Assembly: GCF_000002865.3 (NCBI RefSeq)
Contig: NW_001865041.1
Span: forward strand, 855,793 to 919,792
Direction: 5' to 3'
DNA: 64,000 nucleotides
Source: Monosiga brevicollis MX1
Lineage: Eukaryota > Opisthokonta > Choanoflagellata > Craspedida > Salpingoecidae
The position numbers were made by a program, and so were the translations under genes. Each line of letters begins with the position of its first letter. The first letter of the stretch is position 1. This document shows, piece after piece, positions 39,901-64,000 of this stretch. A model generated the notes under the pieces. It made no database searches, had not been told where the DNA came from, and saw only the letters and a program-made list of their open reading frames with translations.

Positions 39901-39987
39901 TTTTTTGTTGTTTATTGGCAGGTTCAAACTCCCCGAAACAGCGAGGGGCCTGCCAATCTTATGTTTCTGAACCCGGCTCATCGCTGA
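36941..39987 (+). CDS. Ras-family guanine nucleotide exchange factor (REM + CDC25 domain)
   Basis: Placed exons: 36941-37097, 37261-37772, 37900-38000, 38104-38258, 38524-38680, 38797-39057, 39221-39373, 39540-39557, 39629-39691, 39922-39987. The join between 38258 and 38524 is out of phase, so one short exon there is missing from the model. A basic, Ser-rich segment (KVKRSRRSLGARRASLLSLG) comes first. A helical region (LFRWFQLRARLFDVL; RNLNAFIFRLEQCS) matches a Ras exchanger motif in position. The CDC25 catalytic domain is clear: AVAHALTVLEWDQMA (family QLTLIEWELF), LVAICDALLALGNFNSFVSL (family AEHCRELNNFNSLMAI), AVSRLKTSLGELS and NYRRAFRACLATGQPCIPFL (family NYREAL...PCIPFLG). Ras, Rap or Ral preference cannot be told. 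The C-terminus is uncertain: the last exon stops just where the final helix would continue. Confidence 0.82.
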
Positions 39988-40090
39988 ACGGTGAGTTGCC
40001 AACGCACTCAGTCCTTGTTGAGCATTTTCTCTTGAGCCTACATTATCGACCGTGACGAGCAAGCGCTTCTGCCTTGTTGTTGCACGTTTA

Positions 40091-41689: not shown

Positions 41690-42366
41690 GAGTTGCTACT
41701 GTGCTGTGATGTGATGTGAGGCTGCGCCATCTCGCGAGCCAGGCTTGAACTCGAGTGACAGGAAGGAAAGTCGATTCTTAAAGAGTTTGGAGATAAGACT
41801 CACATGGGTGCTTGCTCAATAAAAGGAAAGGAGACGAGGTCAGACTTGGAAGGAACAGTCAAAAGCCAACATAAGTTTCGATGAAGCGAGGGGGCAAAAC
41901 GGGTCAGGGACAAACGTATTATTCATCTTCTCCGGCCCATCCGAACCTCCAGTCGCTTGCTTCATCGCACTTCCACTTTTGTTGTTCCTCTTGCTGCCAC
42001 GTACTCCCTTCGAGCGCATCACCCCAGCCTTCCCTCATGCACACACACACACACACACACATAAAAGCACACCTCTCAAACAGTAGATACAAACAGATAA
42101 AACAGAACACACAAAAAAACCAAAAGGCAAACAATACAGATACAAGCAAAACACAAAGTGTCAGTGTGTACGCACGCATACACAAGGACAATGGAACGAC
42201 ACATGGTATTTGTACAAAAATGGACAGAGATTCACAAGTGAAATCTCGCAAGCATTGCCATTAGCAAGGAACAGACCATTGTAACCCCTCACCAAGGCTA
42301 CGCTTTCAAAAGTAACGGTGAAGTAGGTCACACGACAACGGACCGTTCAAGCTGATTCCGAGAGCT
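41690..42366. other. Convergent 3' intergenic region
   Basis: This interval lies between the last + strand exon and the stop of the giant minus-strand gene. AATAAA at 41818-41823 (+) is a candidate poly(A) signal for the + strand gene. A short CA tract lies at 42039-42060. No gene is supported. Confidence 0.55.
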
Positions 42367-43593
42367 TTAGAACAAGCTTTCAGAGATGTCCGGTTCAGCA
42401 CGGCTAGGGCGAGTGCGCCCACGCTTCTCCATCTTCATGGACTGGCGATTGAGGCTGTCTCGCATTCCAGACACGGAGGCCATGTCCGAGCCAAACCGGT
42501 AGCGATCGTTGCGCAGCTGGGCGCGATAGGATTGGATCTCATCTGTATGTACTTCATCATCGTGGCCCGTAATCAGATACTCCGGGTCCATGGTGCCACT
42601 CGTGTAGCGACCAACATTTGCCGAAATGAGGCGATGGCCCACGTTGACACCACGCGGCTGATAGTAAAACTGGATGCTCGTGCCGGCCTTGCTCTTGGCA
42701 ATGCCAACCGCCCAATATCGGCTGATGCCGGCGGGGTCCGTCTTGGCAAGCACATAGCCGCGGCAGTCGGGCATGGGGCGAACACGGAAGTTAATCACCA
42801 GGCGACGCTGAACAGCAGGATGGAAGTGCTCCGGTACGTTGAAGTAGCACTGACTTGTGCCATCAAACACATAGCTATCTTCTGCTGAGCCTGCTTGCAC
42901 CGTACCGTTAACGTCATCAGCCACGGCAAACAATGGTACTGGATCGCTAAGAGCGTCTGTACCAGCGGCGTTGGCAGAGGCAGCATCCGAGGCAACGGTA
43001 ACACCGGCCAGCTCTGCATGCAAGGGGTAACGCCCCGGAGGACGCTGGCCCACACGCAGAGTGCCAGGGCCGTCCTGCAACACATCCGTCAAGGGCGTGG
43101 AGAGCAGAACACTGCCATCGCACGAGAATGTGATTTCTGTGTCGCGAATCTCAATGCACACGTCTAACCAAGGGTCATCCTTGACTGCTGCCAAAACAGC
43201 GCCTGCCAGGAGCGAGCTCTTGTCAGAAGCCACGGGCAGCGCCGAGGCAGAGGCAGTCGCCGCCGCCGCCGCCGCCGCCGTAGTTGCAAGACTGGAAGCC
43301 GCGGTGGGTGCACCACCACGGCTCGATCCTGTGTCAAACATATCCATTTTCAGAGCATTGGCCTCGTTGTCCTGATAGTTGACATCGGGCGACAAGTCCA
43401 CGAGCGGGTCCTGTGCCCCACGACCACCAAGCTCAACAAAGGCCGAGAACAAGGGATCAACGACCTCTGGTTCTCCCGTGTCGAACATGGGGTTGACAAA
43501 GGCAATGTCCTCGCGCGTCTCGTCCGTAAGCTGACCCATTTGGATCTCCAGGTTGGTCTTTTCATCCTGCAGTTGCTTGTCCTGACGCGCCTT
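42367..43593 (-). other. C-terminal tail with LamG-like remnants and an Ala run
   Basis: Roughly 410 residues follow the span. An acidic first part contains an alanine run (about eight Ala from GCC repeats, near 43255-43285). Two stretches look like LamG strands: VCIEIRDTEITFSCDGSVLL, and LVINFRVRPMPDCRGYVLAK with YWAVGIAKSKAGTSIQFYYQ. The end is Arg/Ser-rich and basic. By the positive-inside rule this should be cytosolic, an odd place for LamG-like sequence. Confidence 0.6.
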
Positions 43594-46500
43594 CATGAAG
43601 AGAAGCATGAACCACAGACCGGCGAACACCAGACTGAGCAAAGCCACAATCAGTGCCAGATAAAAGGCCTCATTTGCGTCTTCAGGGAAAGTGGAAGACA
43701 GGGACACAGTGTCACAGTAATCACGCAACAAGTCGGTCTGCTCTGTGATGCCGCTACCCATGCAGTGCCATGCCATCATACACACAGGGGGCTTGTGCAT
43801 TGCCAGCGAGTCGTGCTTGGCAATGTCGCACACACAGGCACGGTAATAAAACAGAACCTGCGCGCCCAACGGTGAGCACTCATCAGATAGCGTGGAGTTG
43901 TAAAACCAGTTACTGCAGAGTTCAATGGCATCAGCTTCCATGGTGTCGGTTTGGAAGCTGCATTCATCATCCGTACGCCAGTAAAGCGGAGCGGTCGATG
44001 GTTGGTACAGGTCAAGGGCGGTCTCTTCTGCAGGCACAACCAAAGTGGTGCAGCTTGTGCCGTGAACGGTGTACTCACTGCCCTCGAGTGCGGTGTCGTT
44101 CTGCGCCAGCACGTCAAAGCCAACAGCCAGCATGAGACCGGCTGCATACTGCTGGGTGGTCTGATACATTGTCGCCCGAGTATGACTGGTGGGGCGGAAG
44201 TAGTCCCACATCAGCAACTCGTCGATAGCGCCGTTGAGGGGCATGCTACTGTCCGTTGGCGGTGACGACGACTCTTCAAAAGCAAGAATGGGTTGCACGA
44301 CCTGTCCGATGCGCAAGGCGCCGGTGGGCGCCAAGCCACAGCCAGGCATGATGCTGGCAAACACGTCAGATTGGTTACTCAAGCCAGGGCTCGAGGTTTC
44401 AAGTTGCAGACGACCATCGACACAGCGCCATTTGATGGCCACGTGAGTCCACAGTCCCTGATAGATGGTAAGATCTGATTGGAACACGAATGCACCCCAC
44501 GTAACCGTCAGCATGTTGTCACGGCACAGCACATTGAATGATGTGCCTGTGGCCTCGTCAGTGAAAAAGGACACGAAAGCTTGATCGTGACATCCGGGCA
44601 CCAGTCGTGACTCATTGAGACGAGGAATGTAGACAGCATCCTCGCCAGCAGCGTAGACTGTGTCTTCCACAGATGCTTCACTGGTCCAGGCATCCTGAAC
44701 GTCATCCACAAGGTAGGATACGTTGGTGCGGGTGCGAACATCATCGTAAATGTCTTGCTCGCCAATCTTGACCCAAAATTCCAGACTCAGTCCATTATTT
44801 TGCTCACACGTAGTGTTGCGTGCCACGCCGCACTGGTGGAGAGTGATACTGGCCGAGAGGTTGCCGCTGACCATGAAACCACCACCGCTGACTTGCGTTG
44901 CCCCCAGGTTCTTTTGAGTCGTGGCAATGTCGTATGTTGACACAGCAAAACGCTGTGCTACGACATTGTCAATCCACGACTGCGAGAGAACGTCAATAAA
45001 GGCCACCGGCTCTTCCGTACTCACTGAGGTGGTGGTGGTTGAGGTGGTGGTAGGGACAGGGGTGGTCGCAGGGTTCGAAGCGGTCGAGGTGCCAACAGTG
45101 GAGCTGACGCCAGTGGTGTTCATGGTGCTGGGAATGGACGTGCTTGTGGCAGTGGTGGGCCCTGCTGTCGTGGTCGAAGATGCTAGGATCGCAACTGAGC
45201 AATTTGCGCCAGCAAAGCCTTCGTCGCAAATGCACTCCACACCACCTTGTTCGCGTTCTCTGCAGTAGCCATTGCCTGAGCACGCAGATGGCGAACCCGG
45301 GCAGCGAAGCTGCGAACAATCAGCCCCCTCGTATCCTGAGAAGCAGCTGCAGGTGCCATTGAGGCTGACGGAGAGGTTGGCCGTTGGTCCATCAGGTACG
45401 CACAGTCCGCGACCCGAGCACGAGCCCGGGCACGAGACATTCAGGTTGCAATCATTGCCACCCAAACCCTCATCACAAGCAGCACACATGGGACCCGTGA
45501 AGCCTTCATCACAAATGCAAGTAGGAGTGTTTCCAACCACGGTGCACTGACCGTGGCCGGCGCACTCTGTTGCATTGCTCATCGGACACACAAGAGGAAC
45601 GTCGCAGTTGACACCACCGTAGCCGGCTACGCACTCGCTGCAATTGGCACCCAAGAAGTTGGTGTCGCACAGGCATGAGGGCGTCGTGGCGCCTTCAAGC
45701 AAGACACACGAGCCATGGCTACCACATGAAACGGGGCAGCTCAATTGACTGCAGTCATTGCCACCGAAGTACGGTTCGCACTCACAATACGGCGTGCCAC
45801 CGGGGCGCGCGAGTGTGCATGTGCCAAACCCACCGCAATCTGGGGTGCCAGGACAATCCAGGAGCTGGCAGTATTGGCCTCGCCGGTTGGGCGGGCAGCC
45901 TCGCCAGTAAAACTCATTTTCCAAAACACCATCGTACGCACCGCAAAGACCACTCACGTTGCCTTGCAGCGTGTTCGAAACGGCCACAGCCACGGACAGG
46001 ACGCCCGAGTACGAAGCAGCCGTCACGTTGACATCATCGCCAGCGGTGATGATAATCTTGTGCCGGCTGCCATTGAGGTAATACCGCACGGACATCGCAT
46101 CCAGCGCAGGCACCCTCGGGTAGTCTGACTGCTCGTACGACCGCATCGAGCCTGAGAGATGCGACAGGATCAAGTCGTCGCTGCCGTCACGGGGCGATGC
46201 AACCACAACGACCTGGTTGTTATGAATTACAGAGACCTCTGACGTGGTGATGCACTGGTGATGAGCCTCGCAAGGCAAGTGGAACACCTGAACCAGCGTG
46301 TCCTCGCTGCGCATCATAGTGAAAGCACCAAGCGAGTTCATATCATAGTTGGTACCGCTGAGGGTGGTCGTGTGCGGGTCACCAAACGACACGCAAACGG
46401 CCTGGGGATGGTCCTCCTTGAGCGTTGAGAGCGCAACGGAGCAATCGGTACCAATCCAGCCAGCTGTGCAGGTGCTGCAAACGTCGTCGCCAGCCCAGCG

Positions 46501-49500
46501 GTCATCACACTCGCAAGCACCGGTTACATTGTTACAATCGCCATGACCCGAGCACGCCGTGTTGTTGACGATGCCCGGGCACGTCTGCTGACAAGAGGGC
46601 CCCCAGTGCAGATCATCACAGTAGCAGAATGCATCTCCCTCGCTATCAGCGGCTGCAACGCCGAAATAGCAGAGTTCATCGCAGTCCTCGCCAATGTAGA
46701 TGGTGGGGTAACCTTCGTTGCACAGTACACGGGCTGGCCAGTCACTCAAGCCCAGAGCCTTTTGACATGTGGTACCAAGTGCGAAAACGCTGCCCAACCC
46801 AGTAGTGGCCACGCCGCTGAGCGCGGCTTGCTGGATGCACTCAAAGCGGTAAGACGAGAAGATGGCCGGGGAAAGCGCACCACAAGCTGGACGCAAGGCA
46901 TCGATCCAATCATCGCAGCTGGCGAGGATGGCCATCTGCTCGTCGGCAGTCAGATCGCTGACCGCGACGGTAGCAGGCCAGCCGGCCACTGAAGTTACCA
47001 CTGCGCGGCGCCGGCGCCGAAGCTCGAAACGAGAGACGGTGACCCGCCGATTTTCCAGGGCGGCCAAAGAATACGAAACGGCGCCTGCCATCGGTACATC
47101 AGAGGCAACCCAAGCCAACGCCAAACGGGATGGCCCCTGCAAATGGTCGCCGTTGATACTATCAAAGGCCAGGTCATCTGTGCCCTCATCAAAACGCCAA
47201 TGACGGAGAAGTCCCGGCGCATAGCGCGGGATGTTCTCACCAAAGGTCGAGCGCACAATGGCCATACTACTAAGGCGATCCCACAAGCGGAGCTCATCCA
47301 CAACACCCACGAAAGGCATGGAGGGTGGGCGTCCAATGCCCAGGGAGCCACCGAGCCAGCGACCCAGGGCCAGGGTGCCAGACGTAAAGTCGGCGTCCAG
47401 ACCAACCCAAGCAGCCGCTGAAAACATCTCGTTACGTTCATCGATGACCCAGAGCTCGACGTAGCCGAGCTCAGCTTGGTGCACCAGAGTCAGCTGCGAC
47501 CATGCGTCATTTGCCAGCTCAATGTTTGAGTCGACAATCTCATCGCCATATGTGATGGTGAGTGTGCGTGTCTCCCACGTGCCAGCAACACAGGCTGTCA
47601 ACGTGGACCAATCTGCGATCGTGCTCTGTGGCACCAGCGTTGCAACCTTGGTACCATCGTCTGAAACGCTGTGCGATGCGACGGTAAAGGGAGTGGTAAA
47701 AGCGTCACAGCTTACGTAAACGGTTCCCAAGACCACAGGGCGCTCAAAGGCCACCATTCGCAAATTGGCACCCGAACGCACCAAGCGTGAAAAGGAGCCC
47801 TGGTCTCCATGTGATACCGTCAGGCTGAGCTGGTCGGCAATGGAGAGGATGACACCTCCCAATGCCCGTGGCTTGACCATCAGATCAAGGGCAAATTGGG
47901 TAGTCACGTGCACGTCGAGGGGCCCACTTACCGACGAGTCATTAAGGAAGACAGCTGCACCAGCGGTGTTGTTGACACCTGCCACAGACAGTCGATAGCT
48001 TGACTCGTAGTATTCCAGGACCGTGTTCAAAGTCTGATTGTGCCAAGCCACCACGGCCGCCTCGGTACAAGCACCGAAAAGACCGTATGAGACACGGCAA
48101 GCCGTGGGCAAGGCTGCCGGGCCTGTTGGGGAAGTGGTGGTGGAGGTTGAAGTGGTGCTGGTTGTGCTGGTTGTGCTAGTCGTGCTTGTGGAGCTTGTGG
48201 AGGTGCTTGTGGTGGTGTTGGTCTGGTTCGTTGCCGTTGTCGAAGTTGCGATCGACGACGAAGTAGAACCAGTCATTGCGCCCGAAGGCATGGCAGTGGA
48301 AAGACTGGAACCGGTGCTGGCACTGGTTGAGGAGACCATGGCGTCAGCAGCCGTCATGCGCAACGAAAGACCAGCATCACCATTCTCACTCACAACTGCA
48401 TTAAGGCCGAAAGCAGGAATGGCCACGTTGGCACTTTGGTCGTTCAACAAGGTGAGAACCATGTCAAACGGCCAAGCACTAACCACACGGCCAACGCCGT
48501 GCAAGCCCAGCATTGAGGTGCCAGTTTGGCCTTCGACCTCCACACGCACTGTACTCACCGTGCTGACATCAAACGTCACAGTCACGTTGCCCACAGCAAA
48601 GCGGACGCGGTCGACACAAGACAGGCGGCCGTCAAAGCATGCCAGCAACACAGCTGTCACTCGGACTTCAATGTCCGGCACGGCATACAGTAGATATTCG
48701 CCGCGCAGGTCAAAGGAGAAGCGAGTGCCAGAGAATGGAGAGATGATACCGGCTGCCTCGAGAGCCGCTTCGTTGCTCGCACCACCACTCATCATGGCAA
48801 ACTCGCACTCATCACCCATCCATCCCTCGGCGCAGGCGTTGCAATCGACGCCAGAGAAGCGAGCGTCACACACGCACACACCGTTAGATCCGCAACGCCC
48901 GTGGTCGCTGCATGGGTTTGAAGCACCACCCGGACAAACGGAGCGGCAAGCCGCGCCATAATAGCCGTTGTCGCAAGCACAGACGCTGGGATTGGCATCG
49001 TCAGCGTTGCCGTTATAGCACTCGACATCACAAGATGGCCCAATCCACATGGGAAAGTCAAACTCAGGGAAGTCGTTGCAGTACGCTTGCAGAGGCCACT
49101 GCGAAAGCGATAAGACGGTCTCGCAAAAGTCAGCAAAGGCAAGGATGGCCGACCGTGAAGCCGACACGTCGCCACTGACAGCAACCTCATCCAAGCACGC
49201 GGCATAGAAGTACTCGATCGTGGTTGACTCGAGCAGGGCACAGAGGCTGGTAGAGCTCTGAATGAAACGGCTGCAAACGTCAATCGCGGCAGCCTCCTCT
49301 TCATCCGAGCCAAAAGACAGCTCTGAGCTACTCGAGGATGTTAGGTCCTCGATGTCAGTGTACGTTAAGAGCCAGTATGGGCTGGGCAGCGGAGGTACCG
49401 CCATAATCAGGTCCATGCCAACGGGGCCCAGATCACGGACCGTATCGCCCTCACCATCGTCAAACTTGTAAAGCAGCTTGAGGTTTTGTGCCGAGGGCTG

Positions 49501-55500: not shown

Positions 55501-58500
55501 ATCACCCAAGGCCTGCCCCGGTAGAGCTAGTGCTGTACTAAAGTTGCTTGCTGCCAGCTGATAGCGGCAGTTTCCGTAAAAGTCAAACGTCTGGTCGTCA
55601 AAAGTGACAATGCCCAGGTGACCAACGGCACGGCAAGTCAAAGTCGGGTCCGAATCAGTGTAGCCACACGATGTGCCATTGCCACCACACACGCCGCAAC
55701 GATCAAGAGCGTCGGACGCCGGCAAGGCAGGGCACAAGGTACCCTGCAGCCGGGCAGCGAAGCATCGCGTCTCATTAGCGACAGGGCCATCCAGTAGATC
55801 ATTCAGCACGGTTAGATTGGTTACGACCGAGCCGTGAATGTTTGTAATCTCGTCACACACATACTGGACGCAGGCAGCAAAGAGGCGATGTGCCTCGGAG
55901 CACTGGGAAGTTGTGGAAGTACGAGCATACACGCCACATTGACTCAGCTCAGGCTCCGCCATCAGCGTGTCAGAGCAGAACGAGCTACCATTGGTGATCG
56001 GACAAGCAGGATAGATTGTTGTAGCGGTGCCACTCTCAAGTGTGACGGTGCTAGGTACGGTGGCTGGCGCACCCGAACCACAGATGCCGTCGGCGGCCGA
56101 CAGAGCTGCTGAGGCATACACGTCGAGCCATGCTTCCCGCGCGACCAAACGGACGTCCGCACCGACGTCCAGGCGAAGGCCGTCTTCGCGCTCATCCGCA
56201 TAGAGGACAAATCCTGAAGCATCGCGTTGCATCCAAGGGAAACTGGTGATCAGAGCACCGTTCCAGCGCAAATGGCCACCCATTGTCAGTTGAACCAGGT
56301 CACCCGAGGGCGTGCGAACAGCTGCAGTACCGGACTGCCCCGCCATACCCAAGACATAGCCAGACGTGCCAAGCAGCGTGTAGCCACAACCCGTCGTCAG
56401 CATTTGCGCCAGGTCATCGTCGACGAAAACATACGAGCCGTTGACCACTGAGCAGACGGCATTCAGAGAACGCCGATCCTGTGAGCAGCGCTGCACGGCG
56501 GGCTGGAAGGTCGTGATCCCGGCGCTTTCGCAGGCACCACTGAGCAAGTGCAAGCTGGGTAGGCAGGACACCGCATCGGCGCCCGCCTGGCAGCGTTCCA
56601 AGATGCAACGGGACTCCACCGTAGCCCACAGACTGCTGCCAACGGCAACTTCACAAGTGGCATAGGCGGCCATTTCAGTTGCACAAGAGGTTTGCGCGGC
56701 CGTTCGGGCGCTAGTTGAGGGGCAAGTAACGCTGGCCGCATCGCAGGCACCGGTCGACACGCTGAAGATGCCAGTGGCAAGAGGCAAAGTGCTTCGGCCG
56801 GAACACAAGCCACACCAACCGTCACTCTGGCCCGAGCCGTGCGCAACAACATCAACGTTCATCGTGGCCAGGTCTACGTCGAGACGCAAGCCAGCCACCG
56901 ACACGACTAAGGATGAGCCGCTTTGGAAAAAGTCGAGCTCAGCGGACATGAGCGACGTATTATATGCCTTAATGGTTGCCCCTCGGTTCAAGAGGTAGCC
57001 ATCCGAGCGGAATTCGTACAAGGTGCCAAGGGGCGTTCGGACGGCGAGCGCCGGTGCACACAGTCCGTTCGAGCAGGAATGCTGACGCACATAAACACCC
57101 AATCCAGTGACGCCACAATCCGTCACGACGGCGTAGTCACATGAAGCCGAATGTACGGCCACTGTGGTCGCAAATGTCTGATGGAGAGCGCCATACACGC
57201 GGCACTGGTCGTCGCTTGCGCAAGAACCACCAGCATCAGGTGCACCCAGGCATTCACCACACTCATTCACCACGGCAACGTCAGGCAACCCGCAGCGCGC
57301 GGCAACTTCTCTGAGCAGAGCACAGAGCTGAGTGCTGCTGGCACCCAAGGCACGAGCAGCATAGCACTCGTTCTGGCTCAGGGTCAAGTCGATGTCCGTG
57401 CGGCAAAGAGCGAGCGGGAAGCGGTCTGGTGCAATGTAGTCACACACATCTGACGTACACGATGCATTCGCCTCGCAATCGCGGCGCTCAATTGTATCCT
57501 CGCAATCTTGATGGGTTGCAATCAAGGAACTGACCGCCAAATCATCCACGACTGGGGCCTGGAGCATGACGCAGACGTCGAGAGCACACGCACTGGCGCA
57601 TGGCTCTGTTGAGAGGCCGCAGCGTTGGTATGCTTGCGTGAGCAAGTTGCTCGGGCAGGCCACATCTTCGCCATGGGTGGCATTTTGATGCACGGCACGC
57701 CACTCCTCGCAAGTCATGCCGTTGGGATACAAAAAGGCCGACTCGTTGCAAGGAGGCACGGTCAGAGGTTCTTGACTGCGACACAGGCCTGAGCTGGCCA
57801 GGAAGGGCAGCGCAGTGGCTACGTAAACATTCAGGTAGAAGCTCTCGATGCGTACGTCAACATAAGTAGAGTTGTCCAGCAAACGCAAACGAGCTCGCGC
57901 TGATGTCAGGTCCACTATGCCGCCCACGGCCGTTGTGGGCATGCCAACTACGATCTGGCCGTTGACGGTGACAACGGCGTCACCAGCGGCGTACAAGGCG
58001 AGGGTCTCGCCCGTGCCGGTGTGCCGGATAGCCAACGCCGAGTTGACGCTTGCTTCTCCACTTGCTTCCAGACGGGTTTGAAGCTCAAGCTCGCCAATGC
58101 GCAGCAGAGTGTACTCACCAACACCGTAAAAGTCGAAGGTCTTCTGGGAAAATGTGATGTAATGTGGATCACCCCAGCTCGTGCACATGGGGTTTGAGGC
58201 CATGAAGCGATCAAAGGCATCGTCACCCACTGGATCACGCGACGGGCTCGGCGGGTCAGTATAGTTCTCCCATTTCTTGCGCTCTTCGTCCTGCTCAAGG
58301 TTATAGGCGCACCACGCAATGTCATCAGCAGCGCAAACATCCGCGATGCAGGCAGCAACGCTCGCTGCCGAGTCCAACTCGGCGCAGCACTCTTCAGCTT
58401 GGGCTTGTAGTGTGCTGTTGGTGCACTCGTCACTGAGCACGGGCTGCGGGTCCGGGTTGCGCTCTTCGTAAGTGAGGTTGCGATACACAAACCGCGAGTC

Positions 58501-61500
58501 ATTGCGGGTGACGAGCACGCCAGTTGGATCCGAGCACAGACCGCCGTACAGGTCCACTGCACAGCCATCCAACACAAGACGCGGGTTGATGTAAGTCTGA
58601 CCCAATCGAGTGAGGGTGAGCGTAATGAGGTCACCCACAACAATGGTGGCGCTCACGTCAGAGGTCATCACAGTCATGTTTCGGAGCTCGTACATGCCGT
58701 TTGGCACGTGTGTCTGGTTGATGAAGAGGTCGAAGCGGCCCATCATATTGTCTACGCCGACAGTCCACATGTCAGCTCCAGCCTCGTCGTAGAGTCCAAC
58801 GACGACGTACTGGATGGCTGAGCCCTGTCTCACTTGGACGAGGCGGGCGTGAACGAAGTAGCGATCCGTATCAAGCATCCAATATTCACCAACAGCATTG
58901 AAGTTGTAGCGATTCCCCTTCACGCCAATGATGCGCGGGTCTGTGTTAAGTTGGCATTGCAGCCGAGTAGAACAACTGGGCACCGTGGGATATGTGGGTG
59001 GCGGCGATGGCGGCGATGGCTGAACAACCTTGGTGTCTTTGTAATCATTGCACATGTCACGGTCGTTGGTCAGGCAAATGTCAGTAATGCAAGATGATTT
59101 GAGCGAGCCCAATTCAGAGCAGCACGAGTTTGCAAATGCCAGCAGATCTGCATCATCTCGACAATGATTGCTGTCTGACACATCGCACGGCTCGACCTCA
59201 TCAGCAGCAAGACTGTGGAAAAGCGATTCGTTGACCGGAATGCCGTGCAGCTGACTCACAGCATCGTTGCCACACAAGCCCGAACCAACCGCAATGGTGT
59301 CCGCGTTGGCAGTTTCGATCCAAAGGTTGATGTAAAAGCCGTAACGCCGCATGACGACGGTGAGATCCGTCGTGAACACGCGCGCGCTCTCGAAATTGGA
59401 CTGCACAATCATGGATCCCACAGCGTATGTGCCAAGCACGGCAGGAACTCCATTGATCCAGATTTTGCCATCGTAATCAAGCTCAACCCACGAAAGACCG
59501 TTGGCCGTATTATTGTCAACTGCGACGACGACACGCGCGTTGCGACCCGGGCAGGTATGAATGCGCGTTTGAACCCAGGTGTGCGCAGTGCGCAGTAGTG
59601 TAAAGTCACCCGTGGCATAAACATCGTGGCGAAGACCATTAAAGGTGGTGTAGTGAGGGTCACCGATAGCGGCACACGTCGCTTGGGGCGCTGGCCCGTC
59701 TGGGATCTCAACCACCGTTTGAAGGTTGCCAAAGCGCGGGCAGGTAATCTCCGCACCATGAACGCAGGCATGTAGTGCGCAAGCATCTCGCAAAGACACA
59801 TCTAGCGCGACACAGCAGCGTACCTGGGGTAAAGCTTCGCACCGTTGGGCTGCAACGCTGATCGTATCGTTTGCGCTGAGAGGCGCAAACCACGTCGCGT
59901 TGATGCTGACTGCCTCCTGCTCAAAGCGATCCACGGGTGGCTCCACGCGGTTGCTGTAGAAACCAACCATACCAGCACTTTTGTACAGGTGCGCAGGCGT
60001 GACTGAAGTTGCGAGCAAGCAATAACCACCGCTCAAACCATACACCGCAAGCATGGTGCTGCTGGACAGGCGAAGAGTCCACAGATCGTTCAGGCCATCG
60101 TAGAGAAGGCCTTCCACATCATGGGCGCCAGCTGCTGAACCATTGACAAAGACGGACGGTCCACCAGAAGCCGGACACGACCATTGAAGCAATGTGCTGC
60201 TGTTATGTACCCACACAGCAATTCCACGCACCGACACACCATAGACACTTGCAACCAACTCAACCTGAATGCGAACGCCATTGGCGTTGTACAACCAGTA
60301 CACGCCCGGCAAAACGCGCAGCAGCAGGGCTCCGTCGAGGGTACGAACGACAGCGTCCACTAGCACGGCAGTACCGCGACCCAAGTTGGCGCTTGAGGAA
60401 GTCATGCAGGGGCTACTCGTTGTCAGCGCCGACGAAGTCAGGTTGTGACGGCGCGCGTGCGCAAGGCGGCCTTGTTCGGTTGCCAGGTTGGTACTGGTAC
60501 TGACTCGGCAGAAGCCAGCGCTGGCATTGACCAGTGTCGCGGGAATGGCCACGCTGACGTCGAAGGAATCGGCATCCAGGGTGACCAAGAGGGTGGTACG
60601 CGCATCAAAGAGCATCCATTGCCCATTGCGCAAAAACGCCGTCGTGTCGCCCCGCACCTGGCCGTCAGATGTACCGACAGCCTGATCCCCACCAAGGGTT
60701 AGCGAGTGTGCGTCCACATCTACGTCGGCTACGATGCCCGGGCGGGGGCTCACAAGAACGCGGGACACTGTTTGCTGCAAGCACGCGCCTGTTTGGCAAG
60801 TGAATTCCGCCTCAGCAGTGACGCCAAGGGAAGGAACTTCAAGCAGCTGTGAAAGACAGGTGCCACGGGTGATATGGCGAGTGATCCTGTTGAGCGGAGA
60901 CCACAAGCCTGCGCTGGAAAAGTCACACGAATCATGGTCACCAGTACAGGAGCTGTCCGAGCCACCGCATTCACCACACACGCTGTAAGGAACGCTCTGG
61001 GACCAAGGCAAAATGCCTTGAGCAGCGGCGCAGTAGCTTCGAGTCCCCTTGACCACGGCATTGCACAACGTTTCGCGACCATGCTCGCACACGACTGTGA
61101 GACAAGCATCGTAGGTCAAATCCACGTTGAAAGCACAGGCCGTTTGGGTGGTAAGGACGTTGCAAAAGGCCGCAACAGCCGAGAGGTCGCTTGAGGAACA
61201 AGTCGCGGTGGCAGGTACGCCCGCATCGCGGCACGTTCCCGAGGCACCTGTAAGCAGGTGCGCTCCATTGCTCACAGCCCACTGCAGTCCAAACTCATAG
61301 ACTTGAGATGGCAGAGTAGGGTTGGCATACGTTTCACCGTCAGGTTGAATCAGGTCCGACCCGACAGCAGCACCAAAGGCACCGCACAGGCCCCCCACAC
61401 TGCGGCGGAAGATCGAGGGCACAAGAACGCGCACTTCATCATCCACCTTCGACACACGCACTGACAACCCATTGCTGAGTGTGGCAGTGATGGCGTTTGT

Positions 61501-64000
61501 CACAGCCAAAATAGTGTGACCATCTGCGACCCACGGCAGCGAGACGACGGCCCCATTCACCAGCACAGTGCTTTGCGCACGCACTTCAATGGTCAAGCGG
61601 TTCCAAAAGCGAAGCGCCATATCAACGCTCGCCGCGTTGCGACGCACCTGCACCTCGAATTCCGATGAGTTGAGCGTCTTGGTGGCGACATAGGGACATG
61701 TTCCGCTGTAGAGATATGGTGTGCCATCAAATGACACGACAAAGCCATCTTCGCCAATCACGCATGTCGCAAAGTCATCTGCGCAGCTCGAACCGTCGCC
61801 AAGAAGCTCACCACAACGATCCACAACGTCAGGCACTGGCGGCGCATCGCGATCAATACAGAGGAGGCGGTACTGGCGCAAGCTTGACATGCGGTGCATA
61901 TCGTAGCACATGTCCTGAATGCAAGCTTCGTAGAACGCGTCGGGCGCCAACAAAGCGTGACACTCAGCAAAGGGGCCATCCCCATCGATAATCAGGTTGC
62001 ACACCTGTTCAGCACGAATGCGCTCGTCTTCATCAACATCCAAGCATGGATCTGATGGCACCGCCGGTTCTTCAGGCGGCAGACAAATGTCTTCATGGGA
62101 TCGGAACAGCTGCGAGGCAGCACCCGTGACGTTGACGACCGACCAACGGGCAGCCAAGGCAACACCATCCAATTCACCCGTCGTAGTCGACTGAGCGCCA
62201 GCCAAACCGCACACCGAATCGGTGTATTGATCAGGAACCCAAACGGTCAAAATGCTTTCAATGGTCCACTCGACCACGACACCCGAAGGCAAGGTGGCGA
62301 CAATGGTGCCACTGGCGGCGCGGCGCAAGGAGGTGCCATCCGGCAGGAGAGTCGGTAGAGTGCGCACGAGTTCACCGGCATAGTAGACAACACCTTCACC
62401 CAGTTCCAAGGGAGGATAGCGCTGGTGCTTGACGGCAACAGCCTGTGTGTACACACCGTTGCTAGTGCTATTGCGATTGCGCACTTGCACTTCAAACTCG
62501 GCCACACCTGCGCAATCCTTGACAAAGACGTAGTCGCAGACACCGCTTTGACTGAAAGTGGCGCTGTTCACCGTCACGTAATGTGGGTCGCCCCACACGG
62601 TGGTGATGGAGTAGTCGTCGATGCATGTCTCGCCGTTGCCGTTGCAAACACCACACTGATCAATGATGGAGTTGACAGCCAAGGCCCGCCCGCCCGACGA
62701 AGCGCGGCAGACGCTCTCGTATGCACTAAACAGGCCACAGGCCGCCACGCCGCCGGTTTCACAATAGTTGTCAATACAAGCATCGTACATGGCTGCTGGA
62801 TCCACCAACTCGTGGCACGCAGCATAGGGGCCGTCGGCGTCAGAGAGCTGGGCGCAAAACGCCTGGGCATCCTCAAGCGTGGCAGCATCGCAGGTTGCAT
62901 CTCCACGTGCTTCACAATTATCTCCCAACACCTCGGCAACGGTCACGTCGCCCACGACGCGCAGACGAGTGAGATCGTTGCAAGCGCCGTGAAGCGTGGC
63001 GCCTGTTGACAGTGAGGCAAGCACGGAGAGCTGGTCTTGATTGCGGTCATAGCTGATTTCCAAGCTCGGACGCATGACCGAGATGGAGATCAAGTTGCCA
63101 ACTTGCTTGAGCTGGCCAAAACCCAGATCAACTGACTGCTGAACCAAGGCTCCCCATTCGGTAAAGGCGCCTGTTGCATTGATCACGACACTGGTGTTGC
63201 CGGACACAACGGCAAAGCCGGAGAGGACCGAATCCACGACATCTACCGTGATCGCAAAGTCACCCAAGGCCACAATCGTGACGCTACAAGGTGATGCAAC
63301 GCCAAGCGCAGATGGGCCCCGCGATACAAGCACCCCCTGGGTCAACGAGCACGTCCAGGCGTCACATGCATCACCCGTGCCATAGCATTCGTCACAAGCG
63401 TCCACGACGCTGACAAAAGGCGCACTGGCGGCGGCGCAGGAGCGCTCGTAAGAACGTAGAACGTCACAAGCGGCAGCAGGGCCGATATGGCAGAATCGAT
63501 CCACGCAAACATCATAGAATGCTGCGCCCTCAACTTGATCGGCGCAACCGGCATATTGAGTATCGGCCGTGCCAATGAGTACGGCGCAGTAATCTGCTGC
63601 AGCAAGGGGATCGCATGGGCTAGGAGGTTCTGGGCTCACAGTGCACGGACTGTTTGCCATTGTCGTGTTGGTGGAGGCGTTGTGGCAAGCACCGCACGCG
63701 GGTGAGCGATTTGGCGATGTGGCCACGACCGCGGTGATGAAACCGTCATAGCGCAGCGAAAAAGACTGGCTTTCAAGCAACAGTTCACCATTGCTCTCAA
63801 AAAGCGAGACACCATCCACAATGGCCGGCAGGGCCGACAACGTCTGCCCATCAACAACCACCACGGCGCGGGAGAACTGAAGTCGGTCTCCGGCGGCCAC
63901 TAAAGTAGCCGGTGACGTGTACACGTTGTTGACAAAGGCTTCGCCGATTCGCAAGAGCGTGGCAGCTTGGTCGCGACTTACGCCCAGTAGGCTGGCCACA
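42367..64000 (-). CDS. Giant VWD/LamG/EGF cell-surface protein, 5' partial, one exon
   Basis: One open minus-strand frame of 21.6 kb gives 7,210 residues and is still open at the window edge, so the true protein is longer. In order: a tandem array of VWD-like/C8-like Cys-rich units (to about 50150); a LamG-like domain; EGF repeats; a Ser/Thr linker; a second LamG; EGF; a VWD domain (FGDPHTTTLSG); several EGF repeats (CICDEGFTGPMCAACDEG); a Ser/Thr linker; a third LamG; one membrane span; and about 400 cytosolic residues ending SRAEPDISESLF, a possible class I PDZ ligand. The layout recalls SCO-spondin, otogelin or zonadhesin ectodomains plus a transmembrane anchor, but I know no direct counterpart. 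Adhesion, extracellular matrix or prey capture are inferences. Absence of introns over this length is striking beside the split neighbours. Confidence 0.93.
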   Translation of the reverse strand, partial: VASLLGVSRDQAATLLRIGEAFVNNVYTSPATLVAAGDRLQFSRAVVVVDGQTLSALPAIVDGVSLFESNGELLLESQSFSLRYDGFITAVVATSPNRSPACGACHNASTNTTMANSPCTVSPEPPSPCDPLAAADYCAVLIGTADTQYAGCADQVEGAAFYDVCVDRFCHIGPAAACDVLRSYERSCAAASAPFVSVVDACDECYGTGDACDAWTCSLTQGVLVSRGPSALGVASPCSVTIVALGDFAITVDVVDSVLSGFAVVSGNTSVVINATGAFTEWGALVQQSVDLGFGQLKQVGNLISISVMRPSLEISYDRNQDQLSVLASLSTGATLHGACNDLTRLRVVGDVTVAEVLGDNCEARGDATCDAATLEDAQAFCAQLSDADGPYAACHELVDPAAMYDACIDNYCETGGVAACGLFSAYESVCRASSGGRALAVNSIIDQCGVCNGNGETCIDDYSITTVWGDPHYVTVNSATFSQSGVCDYVFVKDCAGVAEFEVQVRNRNSTSNGVYTQAVAVKHQRYPPLELGEGVVYYAGELVRTLPTLLPDGTSLRRAASGTIVATLPSGVVVEWTIESILTVWVPDQYTDSVCGLAGAQSTTTGELDGVALAARWSVVNVTGAASQLFRSHEDICLPPEEPAVPSDPCLDVDEDERIRAEQVCNLIIDGDGPFAECHALLAPDAFYEACIQDMCYDMHRMSSLRQYRLLCIDRDAPPVPDVVDRCGELLGDGSSCADDFATCVIGEDGFVVSFDGTPYLYSGTCPYVATKTLNSSEFEVQVRRNAASVDMALRFWNRLTIEVRAQSTVLVNGAVVSLPWVADGHTILAVTNAITATLSNGLSVRVSKVDDEVRVLVPSIFRRSVGGLCGAFGAAVGSDLIQPDGETYANPTLPSQVYEFGLQWAVSNGAHLLTGASGTCRDAGVPATATCSSSDLSAVAAFCNVLTTQTACAFNVDLTYDACLTVVCEHGRETLCNAVVKGTRSYCAAAQGILPWSQSVPYSVCGECGGSDSSCTGDHDSCDFSSAGLWSPLNRITRHITRGTCLSQLLEVPSLGVTAEAEFTCQTGACLQQTVSRVLVSPRPGIVADVDVDAHSLTLGGDQAVGTSDGQVRGDTTAFLRNGQWMLFDARTTLLVTLDADSFDVSVAIPATLVNASAGFCRVSTSTNLATEQGRLAHARRHNLTSSALTTSSPCMTSSSANLGRGTAVLVDAVVRTLDGALLLRVLPGVYWLYNANGVRIQVELVASVYGVSVRGIAVWVHNSSTLLQWSCPASGGPSVFVNGSAAGAHDVEGLLYDGLNDLWTLRLSSSTMLAVYGLSGGYCLLATSVTPAHLYKSAGMVGFYSNRVEPPVDRFEQEAVSINATWFAPLSANDTISVAAQRCEALPQVRCCVALDVSLRDACALHACVHGAEITCPRFGNLQTVVEIPDGPAPQATCAAIGDPHYTTFNGLRHDVYATGDFTLLRTAHTWVQTRIHTCPGRNARVVVAVDNNTANGLSWVELDYDGKIWINGVPAVLGTYAVGSMIVQSNFESARVFTTDLTVVMRRYGFYINLWIETANADTIAVGSGLCGNDAVSQLHGIPVNESLFHSLAADEVEPCDVSDSNHCRDDADLLAFANSCCSELGSLKSSCITDICLTNDRDMCNDYKDTKVVQPSPPSPPPTYPTVPSCSTRLQCQLNTDPRIIGVKGNRYNFNAVGEYWMLDTDRYFVHARLVQVRQGSAIQYVVVGLYDEAGADMWTVGVDNMMGRFDLFINQTHVPNGMYELRNMTVMTSDVSATIVVGDLITLTLTRLGQTYINPRLVLDGCAVDLYGGLCSDPTGVLVTRNDSRFVYRNLTYEERNPDPQPVLSDECTNSTLQAQAEECCAELDSAASVAACIADVCAADDIAWCAYNLEQDEERKKWENYTDPPSPSRDPVGDDAFDRFMASNPMCTSWGDPHYITFSQKTFDFYGVGEYTLLRIGELELQTRLEASGEASVNSALAIRHTGTGETLALYAAGDAVVTVNGQIVVGMPTTAVGGIVDLTSARARLRLLDNSTYVDVRIESFYLNVYVATALPFLASSGLCRSQEPLTVPPCNESAFLYPNGMTCEEWRAVHQNATHGEDVACPSNLLTQAYQRCGLSTEPCASACALDVCVMLQAPVVDDLAVSSLIATHQDCEDTIERRDCEANASCTSDVCDYIAPDRFPLALCRTDIDLTLSQNECYAARALGASSTQLCALLREVAARCGLPDVAVVNECGECLGAPDAGGSCASDDQCRVYGALHQTFATTVAVHSASCDYAVVTDCGVTGLGVYVRQHSCSNGLCAPALAVRTPLGTLYEFRSDGYLLNRGATIKAYNTSLMSAELDFFQSGSSLVVSVAGLRLDVDLATMNVDVVAHGSGQSDGWCGLCSGRSTLPLATGIFSVSTGACDAASVTCPSTSARTAAQTSCATEMAAYATCEVAVGSSLWATVESRCILERCQAGADAVSCLPSLHLLSGACESAGITTFQPAVQRCSQDRRSLNAVCSVVNGSYVFVDDDLAQMLTTGCGYTLLGTSGYVLGMAGQSGTAAVRTPSGDLVQLTMGGHLRWNGALITSFPWMQRDASGFVLYADEREDGLRLDVGADVRLVAREAWLDVYASAALSAADGICGSGAPATVPSTVTLESGTATTIYPACPITNGSSFCSDTLMAEPELSQCGVYARTSTTSQCSEAHRLFAACVQYVCDEITNIHGSVVTNLTVLNDLLDGPVANETRCFAARLQGTLCPALPASDALDRCGVCGGNGTSCGYTDSDPTLTCRAVGHLGIVTFDDQTFDFYGNCRYQLAASNFSTALALPGQALGDFAVWFQAGVCSFNSEALCLSAVTITSSRFGSVSVSASTGRLTFGSTSTYALNLGADSFRAVPAGFEARLFHGMVRVSWNYRSSLVVTIAADYGGRVQGLCGNGDGLQDEAVSTRDLAWAYGLQWRDLNSCDATREPEDNCVVFPNSLPPQAASACSELQNASGIFADCFDVVDPAPFYDACYQSVCNCLADTQCACSSLEAYQVACRQALVDIDYVEQPCGACPSASCDVGDEATCRFEGGAYFTTFDDLLYRLRPTCPVVLTQDCGGDGFVVAMSLDALTGEPVISYQSLALDYTLDFTAGGLAANSRDDYNPDGVSVRVYVASDGSGASLVDQLMNVTVHIGVNEAVLVRVAGSWDSRVCGLCGANINGNANDDLAPYSVADARRYAEKHLVLPTDECQLVTEPPASCPISHADDVSRQCALAIAQLPNCSSHDDTSLLYTYCHERVCDRLQAQETLVGALEAVLCELYDMQQDRCPTINSHHRDRCGVCFGDGSSCDVQGTFDTSCTLYDTTDVLRFDAARAPLAGNCSYVLIATDQATVELMRPNTIMVRDTSLDENLLSFAVGQLAPTTGHSVSLGDITILGAGAHRLFTRPHVTLLTWSDDSLELEWSGTTMTIRAGNATFVNNVTGVCGTRRRASAAQVVSNTLASAVGPCNANASVVTCTNATRALATAYCNDILMDVRLLGPCHDLIDVAPYVDLCRDWVCRNAQPEWTIETIEVAIPAISAYLEQCNVSYVEDRCGVPFGDGSTCADDRTSCFLAGFEVVQTFTGARQRVGTACQQVLLADAAFGYAVWTEAASRSLHLRYADLLLVVYPNMSFAVNGVLMSGVYRAADVTVRAGLNYVTIVAVKLDLELVVTRHGGVTVKSLATVQSGICSDQPVPSSAFIGTMGHTCTPTVAVPRPCDEHALCYTLGDPLSLEACPSYTDFGFYACNYFMCTSDRDEAIAVVRSREDLCVGSGCGLVIDGDDRCLSGDSSPTTCLVYSQGIMFTNRSQFIDVFGICQLPLVNTAGLRIWLDLSACVSENNCEVTVHIQEGLGSDLVYRITREGNLAILNATSQSFELLSATVVLDRLNGGVTLQLSPLSINATSWVALDMGACTMPELQANRYLDSLRNTSDCASNFTNATLPDVCGTDPDAYHAAQSLCAPLITSDVYASCRDDVDAPGFYDQCMRAVCRGLARSETSVELNNTACGVVSSFERTCVDHGWPITTSILGDCARCSANCRAPPATTCSVLGGNVLQLASGSSGLLPDGDCELVLHEACSAQGSGSARVSLLNNALRVRLIGVGTLILADGVLTLNGTTVPASTTLGLYSIYKLNGATVIEHLYNAFRIVATSDNSFHVESNLKCGVCNAKGAIPYSALLTYTMPHEGASSCTPQQPSSSVCTSVDREAEATEACGVILNASSYDTCLSRLSANRTSLFEACIAMYCDDAMAQALNSRQICGTTVGWYEDLCQPLAAAVGTSIIDECGECGGDGSLCQEDDEDDLASCTVYGGFSRTFSGLDMQACVSGTMLLFADGTECFTADVQVYGHFTLRDAAGYTALNSLTVVIGDATATVTVAGTVRVDGVVQSSLPRTLASNWTITSASQVVTFSSASQGITIAYTYGRVLRIDAPRYFAGEICGLCGDMQDSYEAWAQATSNVTVTSAHAMTFVPAENEGYITSDTCDEQPRAVGNDTLCEDLLDARYNSCRALSNLDVDAFLERCHLAHSQCGAGCACTVVAGYEQLCRTNGVTFSSVVDSCGVCGGNGSSCADPDDDGDDPTGEDDDPWKDGDVTNVTNGYALCFRQAGAAASGLVPSGMLESNFVMIEFLAKPLAYGGTVFSYVYTNAPRNATSNRLDFDMCEPRPQESLLEPVANPPRNGQTFAVLNTQPVTLAYGDERRATNFTMVLEEWNHVVLVWSRLQNIVQFYLFTPEGELQQQFVRFESTDTIFNSGGLMSLGEWAVGPASFEIPDDARPYWGCVDEFRIFERAQTPFDASTIQQNFRRNVQPSAQNLKLLYKFDDGEGDTVRDLGPVGMDLIMAVPPLPSPYWLLTYTDIEDLTSSSSSELSFGSDEEEAAAIDVCSRFIQSSTSLCALLESTTIEYFYAACLDEVAVSGDVSASRSAILAFADFCETVLSLSQWPLQAYCNDFPEFDFPMWIGPSCDVECYNGNADDANPSVCACDNGYYGAACRSVCPGGASNPCSDHGRCGSNGVCVCDARFSGVDCNACAEGWMGDECEFAMMSGGASNEAALEAAGIISPFSGTRFSFDLRGEYLLYAVPDIEVRVTAVLLACFDGRLSCVDRVRFAVGNVTVTFDVSTVSTVRVEVEGQTGTSMLGLHGVGRVVSAWPFDMVLTLLNDQSANVAIPAFGLNAVVSENGDAGLSLRMTAADAMVSSTSASTGSSLSTAMPSGAMTGSTSSSIATSTTATNQTNTTTSTSTSSTSTTSTTSTTSTTSTSTTTSPTGPAALPTACRVSYGLFGACTEAAVVAWHNQTLNTVLEYYESSYRLSVAGVNNTAGAAVFLNDSSVSGPLDVHVTTQFALDLMVKPRALGGVILSIADQLSLTVSHGDQGSFSRLVRSGANLRMVAFERPVVLGTVYVSCDAFTTPFTVASHSVSDDGTKVATLVPQSTIADWSTLTACVAGTWETRTLTITYGDEIVDSNIELANDAWSQLTLVHQAELGYVELWVIDERNEMFSAAAWVGLDADFTSGTLALGRWLGGSLGIGRPPSMPFVGVVDELRLWDRLSSMAIVRSTFGENIPRYAPGLLRHWRFDEGTDDLAFDSINGDHLQGPSRLALAWVASDVPMAGAVSYSLAALENRRVTVSRFELRRRRRAVVTSVAGWPATVAVSDLTADEQMAILASCDDWIDALRPACGALSPAIFSSYRFECIQQAALSGVATTGLGSVFALGTTCQKALGLSDWPARVLCNEGYPTIYIGEDCDELCYFGVAAADSEGDAFCYCDDLHWGPSCQQTCPGIVNNTACSGHGDCNNVTGACECDDRWAGDDVCSTCTAGWIGTDCSVALSTLKEDHPQAVCVSFGDPHTTTLSGTNYDMNSLGAFTMMRSEDTLVQVFHLPCEAHHQCITTSEVSVIHNNQVVVVASPRDGSDDLILSHLSGSMRSYEQSDYPRVPALDAMSVRYYLNGSRHKIIITAGDDVNVTAASYSGVLSVAVAVSNTLQGNVSGLCGAYDGVLENEFYWRGCPPNRRGQYCQLLDCPGTPDCGGFGTCTLARPGGTPYCECEPYFGGNDCSQLSCPVSCGSHGSCVLLEGATTPSCLCDTNFLGANCSECVAGYGGVNCDVPLVCPMSNATECAGHGQCTVVGNTPTCICDEGFTGPMCAACDEGLGGNDCNLNVSCPGSCSGRGLCVPDGPTANLSVSLNGTCSCFSGYEGADCSQLRCPGSPSACSGNGYCREREQGGVECICDEGFAGANCSVAILASSTTTAGPTTATSTSIPSTMNTTGVSSTVGTSTASNPATTPVPTTTSTTTTSVSTEEPVAFIDVLSQSWIDNVVAQRFAVSTYDIATTQKNLGATQVSGGGFMVSGNLSASITLHQCGVARNTTCEQNNGLSLEFWVKIGEQDIYDDVRTRTNVSYLVDDVQDAWTSEASVEDTVYAAGEDAVYIPRLNESRLVPGCHDQAFVSFFTDEATGTSFNVLCRDNMLTVTWGAFVFQSDLTIYQGLWTHVAIKWRCVDGRLQLETSSPGLSNQSDVFASIMPGCGLAPTGALRIGQVVQPILAFEESSSPPTDSSMPLNGAIDELLMWDYFRPTSHTRATMYQTTQQYAAGLMLAVGFDVLAQNDTALEGSEYTVHGTSCTTLVVPAEETALDLYQPSTAPLYWRTDDECSFQTDTMEADAIELCSNWFYNSTLSDECSPLGAQVLFYYRACVCDIAKHDSLAMHKPPVCMMAWHCMGSGITEQTDLLRDYCDTVSLSSTFPEDANEAFYLALIVALLSLVFAGLWFMLLFMKARQDKQLQDEKTNLEIQMGQLTDETREDIAFVNPMFDTGEPEVVDPLFSAFVELGGRGAQDPLVDLSPDVNYQDNEANALKMDMFDTGSSRGGAPTAASSLATTAAAAAAATASASALPVASDKSSLLAGAVLAAVKDDPWLDVCIEIRDTEITFSCDGSVLLSTPLTDVLQDGPGTLRVGQRPPGRYPLHAELAGVTVASDAASANAAGTDALSDPVPLFAVADDVNGTVQAGSAEDSYVFDGTSQCYFNVPEHFHPAVQRRLVINFRVRPMPDCRGYVLAKTDPAGISRYWAVGIAKSKAGTSIQFYYQPRGVNVGHRLISANVGRYTSGTMDPEYLITGHDDEVHTDEIQSYRAQLRNDRYRFGSDMASVSGMRDSLNRQSMKMEKRGRTRPSRAEPDISESLF
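43594..43665 (-). other. Transmembrane segment of the giant protein
   Basis: FYLALIVALLSLVFAGLWFM followed by LLFMKARQDK is a 24-residue hydrophobic span with a basic flank on its C-terminal side, as expected for a type I protein with a cytosolic tail. No other comparable span is visible in the 7,210 residues. Confidence 0.9.
44080..44880 (-). other. LamG-like domain 3, membrane-proximal
   Basis: GLSLEFWVKIGEQDIYDDV, GLWTHVAIKWRCVDGRLQLE and LNGAIDELLMWDYFRPTSHT give the LamG_3 pattern. It follows a second Ser/Thr linker (about 45010-45180) and precedes the membrane span. Confidence 0.75.
45180..45910 (-). other. EGF repeat array, third block (about six modules)
   Basis: Consecutive EGF modules include CGGFGTCTLARPGGTPYCEC, CGSHGSCVLLEGATTPSCLC, CAGHGQCTVVGNTPTCICDE and CSGNGYCREREQGGVECICD. 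Most end in G-F/Y-x-G-x-x-C. A short tenascin/EGF-like array is a fair description. Confidence 0.9.
45920..46400 (-). other. Membrane-proximal VWD domain with intact GDPH
   Basis: CVSFGDPHTTTLSGTNYDMN is a canonical VWD start; NVSGLCGAYDGVLENEFYWR is the typical VWD end. It is separated from the main array by two LamG/EGF cassettes. Confidence 0.85.
46420..46690 (-). other. EGF-like repeats, second block
   Basis: CSGHGDCNNVTGACECDDRW and CSTCTAGWIGTDCSVAL mirror the first EGF block in both sequence and position after a LamG domain. This supports duplication of a LamG plus EGF cassette. Confidence 0.8.
47130..47930 (-). other. LamG-like domain 2 of the giant protein
   Basis: FALDLMVKPRALGGVILSIA, WSQLTLVHQAELGYVELWVI and FVGVVDELRLWDRLSSMAIV give the same LamG_3 pattern as domain 1, ending RHWRFDEGTDDLAFD. 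It is closely related to domain 1, so probably an internal duplication. Confidence 0.75.
48100..48345 (-). repeat. Ser/Thr-rich linker 1 (STT repeats)
   Basis: A roughly 80-residue Ser/Thr-rich stretch with STT units resembles the stalk of the mucin-like gene at 27 kb. It is probably an O-glycosylated spacer between ectodomain blocks. Confidence 0.85.
48780..49050 (-). other. EGF-like repeats, first block
   Basis: Two to three EGF modules, for example CSDHGRCGSNGVCVCDARFS and CNACAEGWMGDECEF, with the usual six-cysteine spacing. They follow the first LamG domain. Confidence 0.8.
49400..50130 (-). other. LamG-like (concanavalin A-like) domain 1 of the giant protein
   Basis: FVMIEFLAKPLAYGGTVFSY opens a jelly-roll domain; EEWNHVVLVWSR and WGCVDEFRIFERAQTPFD are the typical central strand and C-terminal DEFRIW-type motif. 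It is followed by LLYKFDDGEGDTVRDLG, common at the end of LamG_3 domains. Confidence 0.75.
50150..64000 (-). repeat. Tandem VWD/C8/CGxC modules, about 17 units of 250-285 residues
   Basis: Each unit runs: a VWD-like beta region, a Cys-rich C8-like segment (typically CNxL...YxxCHxLxDxxxFYxxC...CxxxxxYxxxC), then a short connector of the form DxCGxCxGNGxxC. Connectors are visible near 63375, 62640, 61805, 60960, 57240, 55680, 54020, 53250, 51055 and 50235, mostly 770-850 bp apart. Canonical GDPHY starts survive in only three units (near 62585, 59665 and 58175). Other units have lost GDPH but keep the connector. A similar CGVCGGDxSxC motif occurs in ADAMTS cysteine-rich regions. Confidence 0.8.

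Follow-up and report, generated by a model that had tools for sequence, protein, structure and literature searches.

The window analysed here, 64,000 nucleotides long (C54:855793-919792 in the 39.47-Mb genome of Monosiga brevicollis), ends inside a single open reading frame on its minus strand, which runs through 42367-63999 with 7,210 codons and no stop and reaches the window edge. Monosiga is a choanoflagellate, a single-celled cousin of animals. With 100 kb of flank added on the frame's upstream side, the frame grows to 59,601 nt or 19,866 codons, the nearest in-frame stop upstream lies at window-continued coordinate 101968, and the 164 kb of sequence read across the locus contains not one N. 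The open frame of more than 21.6 kb (at least 7,210 codons) described in the initial annotation is therefore real and larger than it appeared; the gene that contains it, held there to be intronless, has five introns, every one of them upstream of the window.

As modelled, this giant gene consists of six exons and five introns, with 83,289 coding nt and a single stop at the end, and encodes a protein of about 27,760 aa (27,762) and a predicted 2.9 MDa (Table 1). Upstream of the long frame lie two further open frames, of 1,441 and 6,184 codons, with the same repeats; introns of 96 and 196 nt, placed by hand, connect the three long frames, and three short exons supply the 5' end, with an ATG and a signal-peptide-like start, MQLTSFLLLSLLCLAASMVAS. 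All five introns are confined to the first 23.7 kb of the gene. A simple HMM gene finder, trained on the same region, recovered the ATG and stop of the hand model as well as its introns 1, 2 and 5; where the hand model has a single intron 3 the finder called two, and its intron 4 (100 nt) lies elsewhere, which leaves an uncertainty of some tens of residues in the protein length. The gene model itself is well founded, whereas the cause of its intron scarcity is inferred. As placed by hand, four of the introns (1, 2, 4 and 5) lie within or on the border of 3 of the 33 hits of the glycine-rich module that fills the first part of the protein, and they do not look to have been copied along with that unit, their positions within the module differing as far as could be judged. 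Exon 5 sits in the hand model between two phase-1 introns and is thus symmetric, a property associated with exon shuffling. An antisense frame of 307 aa (48038-48961) was taken to be a shadow of the coding sequence opposite it.

Table 1. Exons of the giant gene and features of its predicted protein; coordinates follow the window and are continued past its edge where so marked.
Feature	Coordinates	Strand	Basis or remark
Exon 1 of giant gene	126515-125853	-	window-continued
Exon 2 of giant gene	125749-125680	-	window-continued
Exon 3 of giant gene	125548-124930	-	window-continued
Exon 4 of giant gene	124595-106339	-	window-continued
Exon 5 of giant gene	106142-102057	-	window-continued
Exon 6 (last), 59,594 nt	101960-42367 (C54:957752-898159)	-	window-continued; 42367-64000 is its 3' part; stop codon 42367-42369
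VWD and C8 array with CGxCxGdGxxC-like linkers	50215-63999	-	Pfam above cut-off; self-HMM; linker by eye
LamG/pentraxin-like, copy 1 in window	49345-50136	-	self-HMM, alignment; weak PDB profile match, E 0.0034-0.03
Two EGF-like modules	48838-49038	-	Pfam, self-HMM
LamG/pentraxin-like, copy 2 in window	47092-48042	-	self-HMM, alignment, weak PDB profile match
Last VWD module	45937-46395	-	Pfam VWD 1.7e-13; self-HMM
EGF-like cluster	45193-45855	-	Pfam, self-HMM
LamG/pentraxin-like, copy 3 in window	44035-44964	-	self-HMM, alignment, weak PDB profile match
Predicted transmembrane helix	43594-43659	-	hydropathy scan; translation
Predicted cytoplasmic tail, 408 aa	42370-43593	-	no family or PDB match

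Base composition predicts some 671 stops in the last exon (log10 P of zero about -297), and the open frame had the top codon score among the six frames in 197 of 198 intervals of 300 nt, with usage learned from other genes and with stops in rival frames penalised, a scheme that favours the open frame. G+C across the window, in 2-kb steps, ranges from 50% to 62%; the genome as a whole is given as 54% in PMC5591225. An Unc18 gene exon, used as a query of 56 aa, is identical to PDB 2xhe_A ('UNC18', an M. brevicollis entry) at 54 of 54 aligned residues. Within the last exon the gene finder called 11 in-frame introns, and 12 controls with shuffled synonymous codons gave 4-12, so that hidden introns show no excess over controls. 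Since only 11 of 118 predicted neighbouring introns are both 3n and stop-free, the ~258 introns expected at 4.33 per kb could not all hide in this exon, which may nevertheless hold a few.

From N- to C-terminus, the protein comprises a signal peptide, glycine-rich modules, a series of EGF, VWD, C8 and LamG/pentraxin-like modules, a membrane helix and a tail. The glycine-rich module yields 33 hits (about 30 modules) over aa 102-15,786, spaced 375-450 aa apart in 18 of 28 intervals (longer hits only), and the remaining half, aa 15,784-27,762, which is without any intron, gives 67 EGF-like, 13 VWD, 19 C8 and four LamG/pentraxin-like self-HMM hits. Pfam cut-offs are exceeded by VWD (PF00094), C8 (PF08742) and two EGF families (PF25024 and PF23106), and eight of the nine VWD matches in the genome are inside the last exon of this gene. 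A hydropathy scan of the whole protein found two hydrophobic segments, the signal peptide and the C-terminal helix, and a type I membrane protein is accordingly the somewhat favoured prediction; a structure model of the 408-aa tail had a mean pLDDT of 39.6 and was unusable. Such a product would be membrane-anchored and very long, and would function in adhesion or as a coat, with a stalk that appears to be of bacterial, glycine-rich type and with EGF, VWD/C8 and LamG-like modules of apparently animal type. The module copies share a mean identity of 35% (best pair, 52%) and the coding sequence is free of exact DNA repeats of ≥25 nt, from which it follows that the expansion is old. Growth by tandem duplication, proposed in the initial annotation, is supported by the number, spacing and mutual identity of the hits.

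Dumpy, titin and PKZILLA all exceed 20,000 aa, and the titin and Dumpy genes have many exons; size is what these proteins have in common with the Monosiga giant, from which they differ in domain make-up. The giant protein is among the largest predicted membrane proteins known. The large central exons of human MUC12 and MUC16 are likewise very long single coding exons of surface proteins, although they are composed of variable tandem repeats, whereas the giant gene is made of old units that have diverged and belong to several types of domain; because MUC12 alleles can reach 23,080 aa, mostly in one exon, according to a preprint (PMC13345508), no size record is claimed here. The VWD and C8 domains recall the gel-forming mucins and VWF, but those proteins are secreted without a membrane anchor, whereas the giant has a predicted helix along with glycine-rich and EGF arrays, and Pfam scans at E 0.01 found no TIL family after C8. 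Teneurin of M. brevicollis itself has a giant exon that was taken as a sign of bacterial origin (PMC6297184) and carries YD/RHS repeats; the giant protein has a teneurin-type EGF array, but no NHL propeller or YD/RHS barrel was matched by Pfam at E 0.01 in a scan of the protein other than exons 1-3 (~450 aa) and a few piece-end codons. A description of the giant gene, or of a rule linking length to introns, was not found in the portion of the literature covered.

The surroundings are intron-dense, as had been noted, with up to 12 predicted introns per gene within the window and 15 just outside it; the 137 predicted introns, the giant gene's included, have a median of 114 nt and a mean of 135 nt. 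In 174 kb around the giant gene there are 21 ordinary genes, 24,966 nt in all, with 108 introns (~4.3 per kb), a set that is incomplete, the finder having missed some genes such as a RasGEF-like stretch; three ordinary multi-exon models that were checked match the MCM2, archease and TPR families. The introns of the 21 ordinary genes are spread evenly over successive fifths of the coding sequence (21, 24, 21, 23 and 19), and 48 are found no more than 500 nt from the stop (4.57 per kb). The RasGEF-like stretch belongs to an interval, 36052-41700, with nearly no predicted genes and with short open pieces on the plus strand (e.g. 38797-39126) that presumably resemble a RasGEF-type gene.

Several very long genes are poor in introns. 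The giant gene has five introns in 83,289 nt and the neighbouring dynein gene 10 in 12,396 nt, and over 23 local genes the correlation between length and intron density is weak (rho -0.38, p 0.077). Five long genes, namely the giant, the neighbouring dynein, and two dyneins and one cadherin chosen for their long frames, have 26 introns between them, of which 14 fall in the first 1.5 kb and one in the last 5 kb; these counts are indicative, for they omit introns called by the finder within open frames: the cadherin has two of these, the last exon of the giant gene 11 and its exon 4 two, and four of them lie in the final 5 kb of the gene concerned. The adjoining dynein heavy chain gene (continued coordinates 144183-158039; C54:999975-1013831) has six of its ten predicted introns in the first 780 nt and one exon of 7,426 nt.

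Beyond the locus, the last exon measures 12,591 nt in one N-free dynein gene with three introns and 11,823 nt in another with two, and a cadherin gene of 30 kb has an N-free frame of 7,963 aa. Among 14 dynein loci above cut-off, 11 have a frame of at least 1,800 aa, a count from which one match below cut-off was dropped, with three loci checked for N and a 4,813-aa frame included unchecked. The other three have short frames only, and in several other dyneins the C-terminal domains are split into short frames and C-terminal introns are kept; both speak against a pure length or 5' rule. Two frames of 29,192 and 11,470 aa, which had seemed comparable with the giant's or longer, were discarded because stretches of N, counted as open, had lengthened them. 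In one dynein, an intron at C46:1007988-1008110 that is 3n and stop-free, and that the DHC_N1 match skips, looks real.

Taken together, the gene structures suggest that it is the length of a gene, and not a place of its product at the cell surface, that accounts for few introns. On balance, the scarcity in the giant gene seems best read as the extreme case of a length effect, combined with duplication of units that mostly lacked introns: where the coding sequence exceeds ~12 kb, many genes would keep few introns, mostly 5', whether the product is a surface protein (the giant, the cadherin) or a motor (the dyneins). Judged from gene structure, the most likely cause is selection against many splicing events per transcript, together with internal duplication. 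At ordinary density the giant mRNA would need ~360 splicing events and, on the assumption of 99% success per event, only ~3% of transcripts would be intact. If selection limits intron number per transcript in this way, the greatest waste of RNA and protein would come from an error far from the 5' end, and introns close to the start, being the cheapest, would be retained. In addition, the gene would have grown by duplication of units mostly without introns. The locus offers a clear test of splicing-error load as a limit on introns in long genes.

A wider reading is put forward more tentatively. Monosiga may hold to a ceiling on introns per transcript and not to a constant density, so that long genes of any product would keep a handful of 5' introns and otherwise have giant exons, and the giant gene may be a chimera of a bacterial-type, glycine-rich stalk of ~15,700 aa and animal-type adhesion modules, together giving a surface protein of nearly 3 MDa, perhaps in the cell coat, the collar or the flagellar vane. 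Such a stalk would link the giant surface proteins of bacteria with a close relative of animals. Were the ceiling true, a giant exon in Monosiga would be no evidence of bacterial origin.

The best surviving alternative, though an unlikely one, is that long genes had their 3' part overwritten by copies reverse-transcribed from mRNA, with introns erased there and spared at the 5' end. It would suit the placement of introns in the five long genes, as counted above without in-frame calls, but it is countered by their even spread in ordinary genes, since a mechanism that begins at the 3' end would be expected to clear short genes as well, and these retain 48 introns in the final 500 nt; several dyneins also retain C-terminal introns. 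Conversion over 60 kb would moreover lie beyond the usual reach of reverse transcriptase.

Somewhat less probable still is horizontal gain, whereby an intron-free bacterial glycine-rich gene was acquired, tandemly expanded and fused to eukaryotic adhesion modules, the scarcity of introns being a relic of its bacterial origin. The glycine-rich module has no Pfam family above chance, and one 210-aa query drawn from it found all 21 of its matches in the Monosiga genome within the giant gene. NCBIfam AgmC_N is matched by eight of 18 modules, at best with 5e-9 and below its cut-off, and the AgmC family (NF047640) scores 32.1 bits at best against a cut-off of 275 bits. Among 590 candidate prokaryotic stretches listed, relatives of the module were found at no fewer than 13 loci, in Verrucomicrobia, Phycisphaerae, Lentisphaerae, Patescibacteria, Gracilibacteria, Auribacter, Anaerolineae, two unclassified bacteria and two archaeal bins, where ~6 kb was read per locus and scanned for this module only; each has one to six modules about 256-448 aa apart (390-450 in three of them). 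No relatives appeared among 600 candidate stretches of viral contigs or, with one query, in phages. The AgmC-like giant surface proteins of bacteria thus resemble the stalk in having a tandem glycine-rich module, at near-Monosiga spacing in three of the at least 13 loci, but differ in that the AgmC match of the giant protein is far below cut-off. In a tree of 28 of the 33 Monosiga hits and 43 of the 49 prokaryotic hits (short or weak ones dropped), in which many branches are weak or long, a single Monosiga clade is not rejected (p-AU 0.765); the tree held to that clade was better by 10.6 log units, and the free quick tree needs four label changes. These observations favour gain, as does the like argument published for Monosiga teneurin (PMC6297184), and from sequence comparison a horizontal source for the glycine-rich half is possible.

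Against the joint claim, a transfer could have run either way, early or late, since the comparison covers Monosiga and prokaryotes; the dyneins, ordinary eukaryotic genes, share such exon structure; and the EGF/VWD/LamG half has no intron at all, the five introns sitting in the glycine-rich half or in the lead N-terminal to it. Because the introns are in the bacterial-type half and the animal-type half lacks them, bacterial origin does not explain intron scarcity. Of the horizontally gained ancestor suggested in the initial annotation, what stands is the possibility raised by prokaryotic relatives of the glycine-rich half, and what falls is its use as an account of the missing introns. Large choanoflagellate exons, which served as a hint of horizontal transfer for teneurin (PMC6297184), are a weaker hint if dyneins share the structure, and the bacterial-origin reading of the teneurin exon is weakened since dyneins have such exons too. 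The recent retrocopy offered as another source is not supported: a retrogene would have no introns and a multi-intron parent, whereas five introns are present, the one module query matches the giant gene only and reveals no parent, and the units are old.

That surface proteins specifically avoid introns, for example through high expression, is very unlikely. The giant gene and the 30-kb cadherin gene, both for surface proteins, do have giant exons, and many long frames occur among the cadherin matches listed, some of them checked for N; but the dyneins are alike in this, and two families of secreted and membrane proteins are not. C1 peptidases matched in ordinary frames in 15 of 15 cases (76-459 aa; five frames carry most or all of the domain in a single exon), as did ion channels in 19 of 19 (56-693 aa), and near the giant gene five ordinary genes with signal- or TM-like segments, with 30 introns in 5.9 kb beside 78 in 19.1 kb for the other 16, are not intron-poor. 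The intron-free rule for surface proteins suggested earlier thus gives way before dyneins with exons of 11.8-12.6 kb and peptidases and channels in short frames. Elsewhere in the window, at 5778-8795, lies another long intron-free frame, of 1,005 codons, in which a hydropathy rule finds no signal peptide and Pfam no match, and its gene does not look like one for a surface protein.

An artefact, either of mis-assembly or of in-frame introns lacking stops by chance, is scarcely credible: the 11 in-frame calls in the last exon and the real-looking dynein intron might be cited for it, but shuffled controls yield similar calls, the sequence is free of N, no exact repeat of 25 nt or more is there to confuse assembly, and domain matches are spread along the whole frame.

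Some minor observations concern the rest of the window and genome. No Rfam match reached gathering score in the window. A tandem array of a 9-nt unit, AGCACAACC, occupies 27481-27677 in 21.9 copies and gives an HNQ/HDK-rich stretch within a predicted 11-intron membrane protein gene. Finally, among 143 Pkinase matches listed (124 of 684 candidates scored), about three dozen cover the profile from ~17-25 to 191-195, mostly in frames of ~650-800 aa on many contigs, and look like one multi-copy gene family or mobile element.
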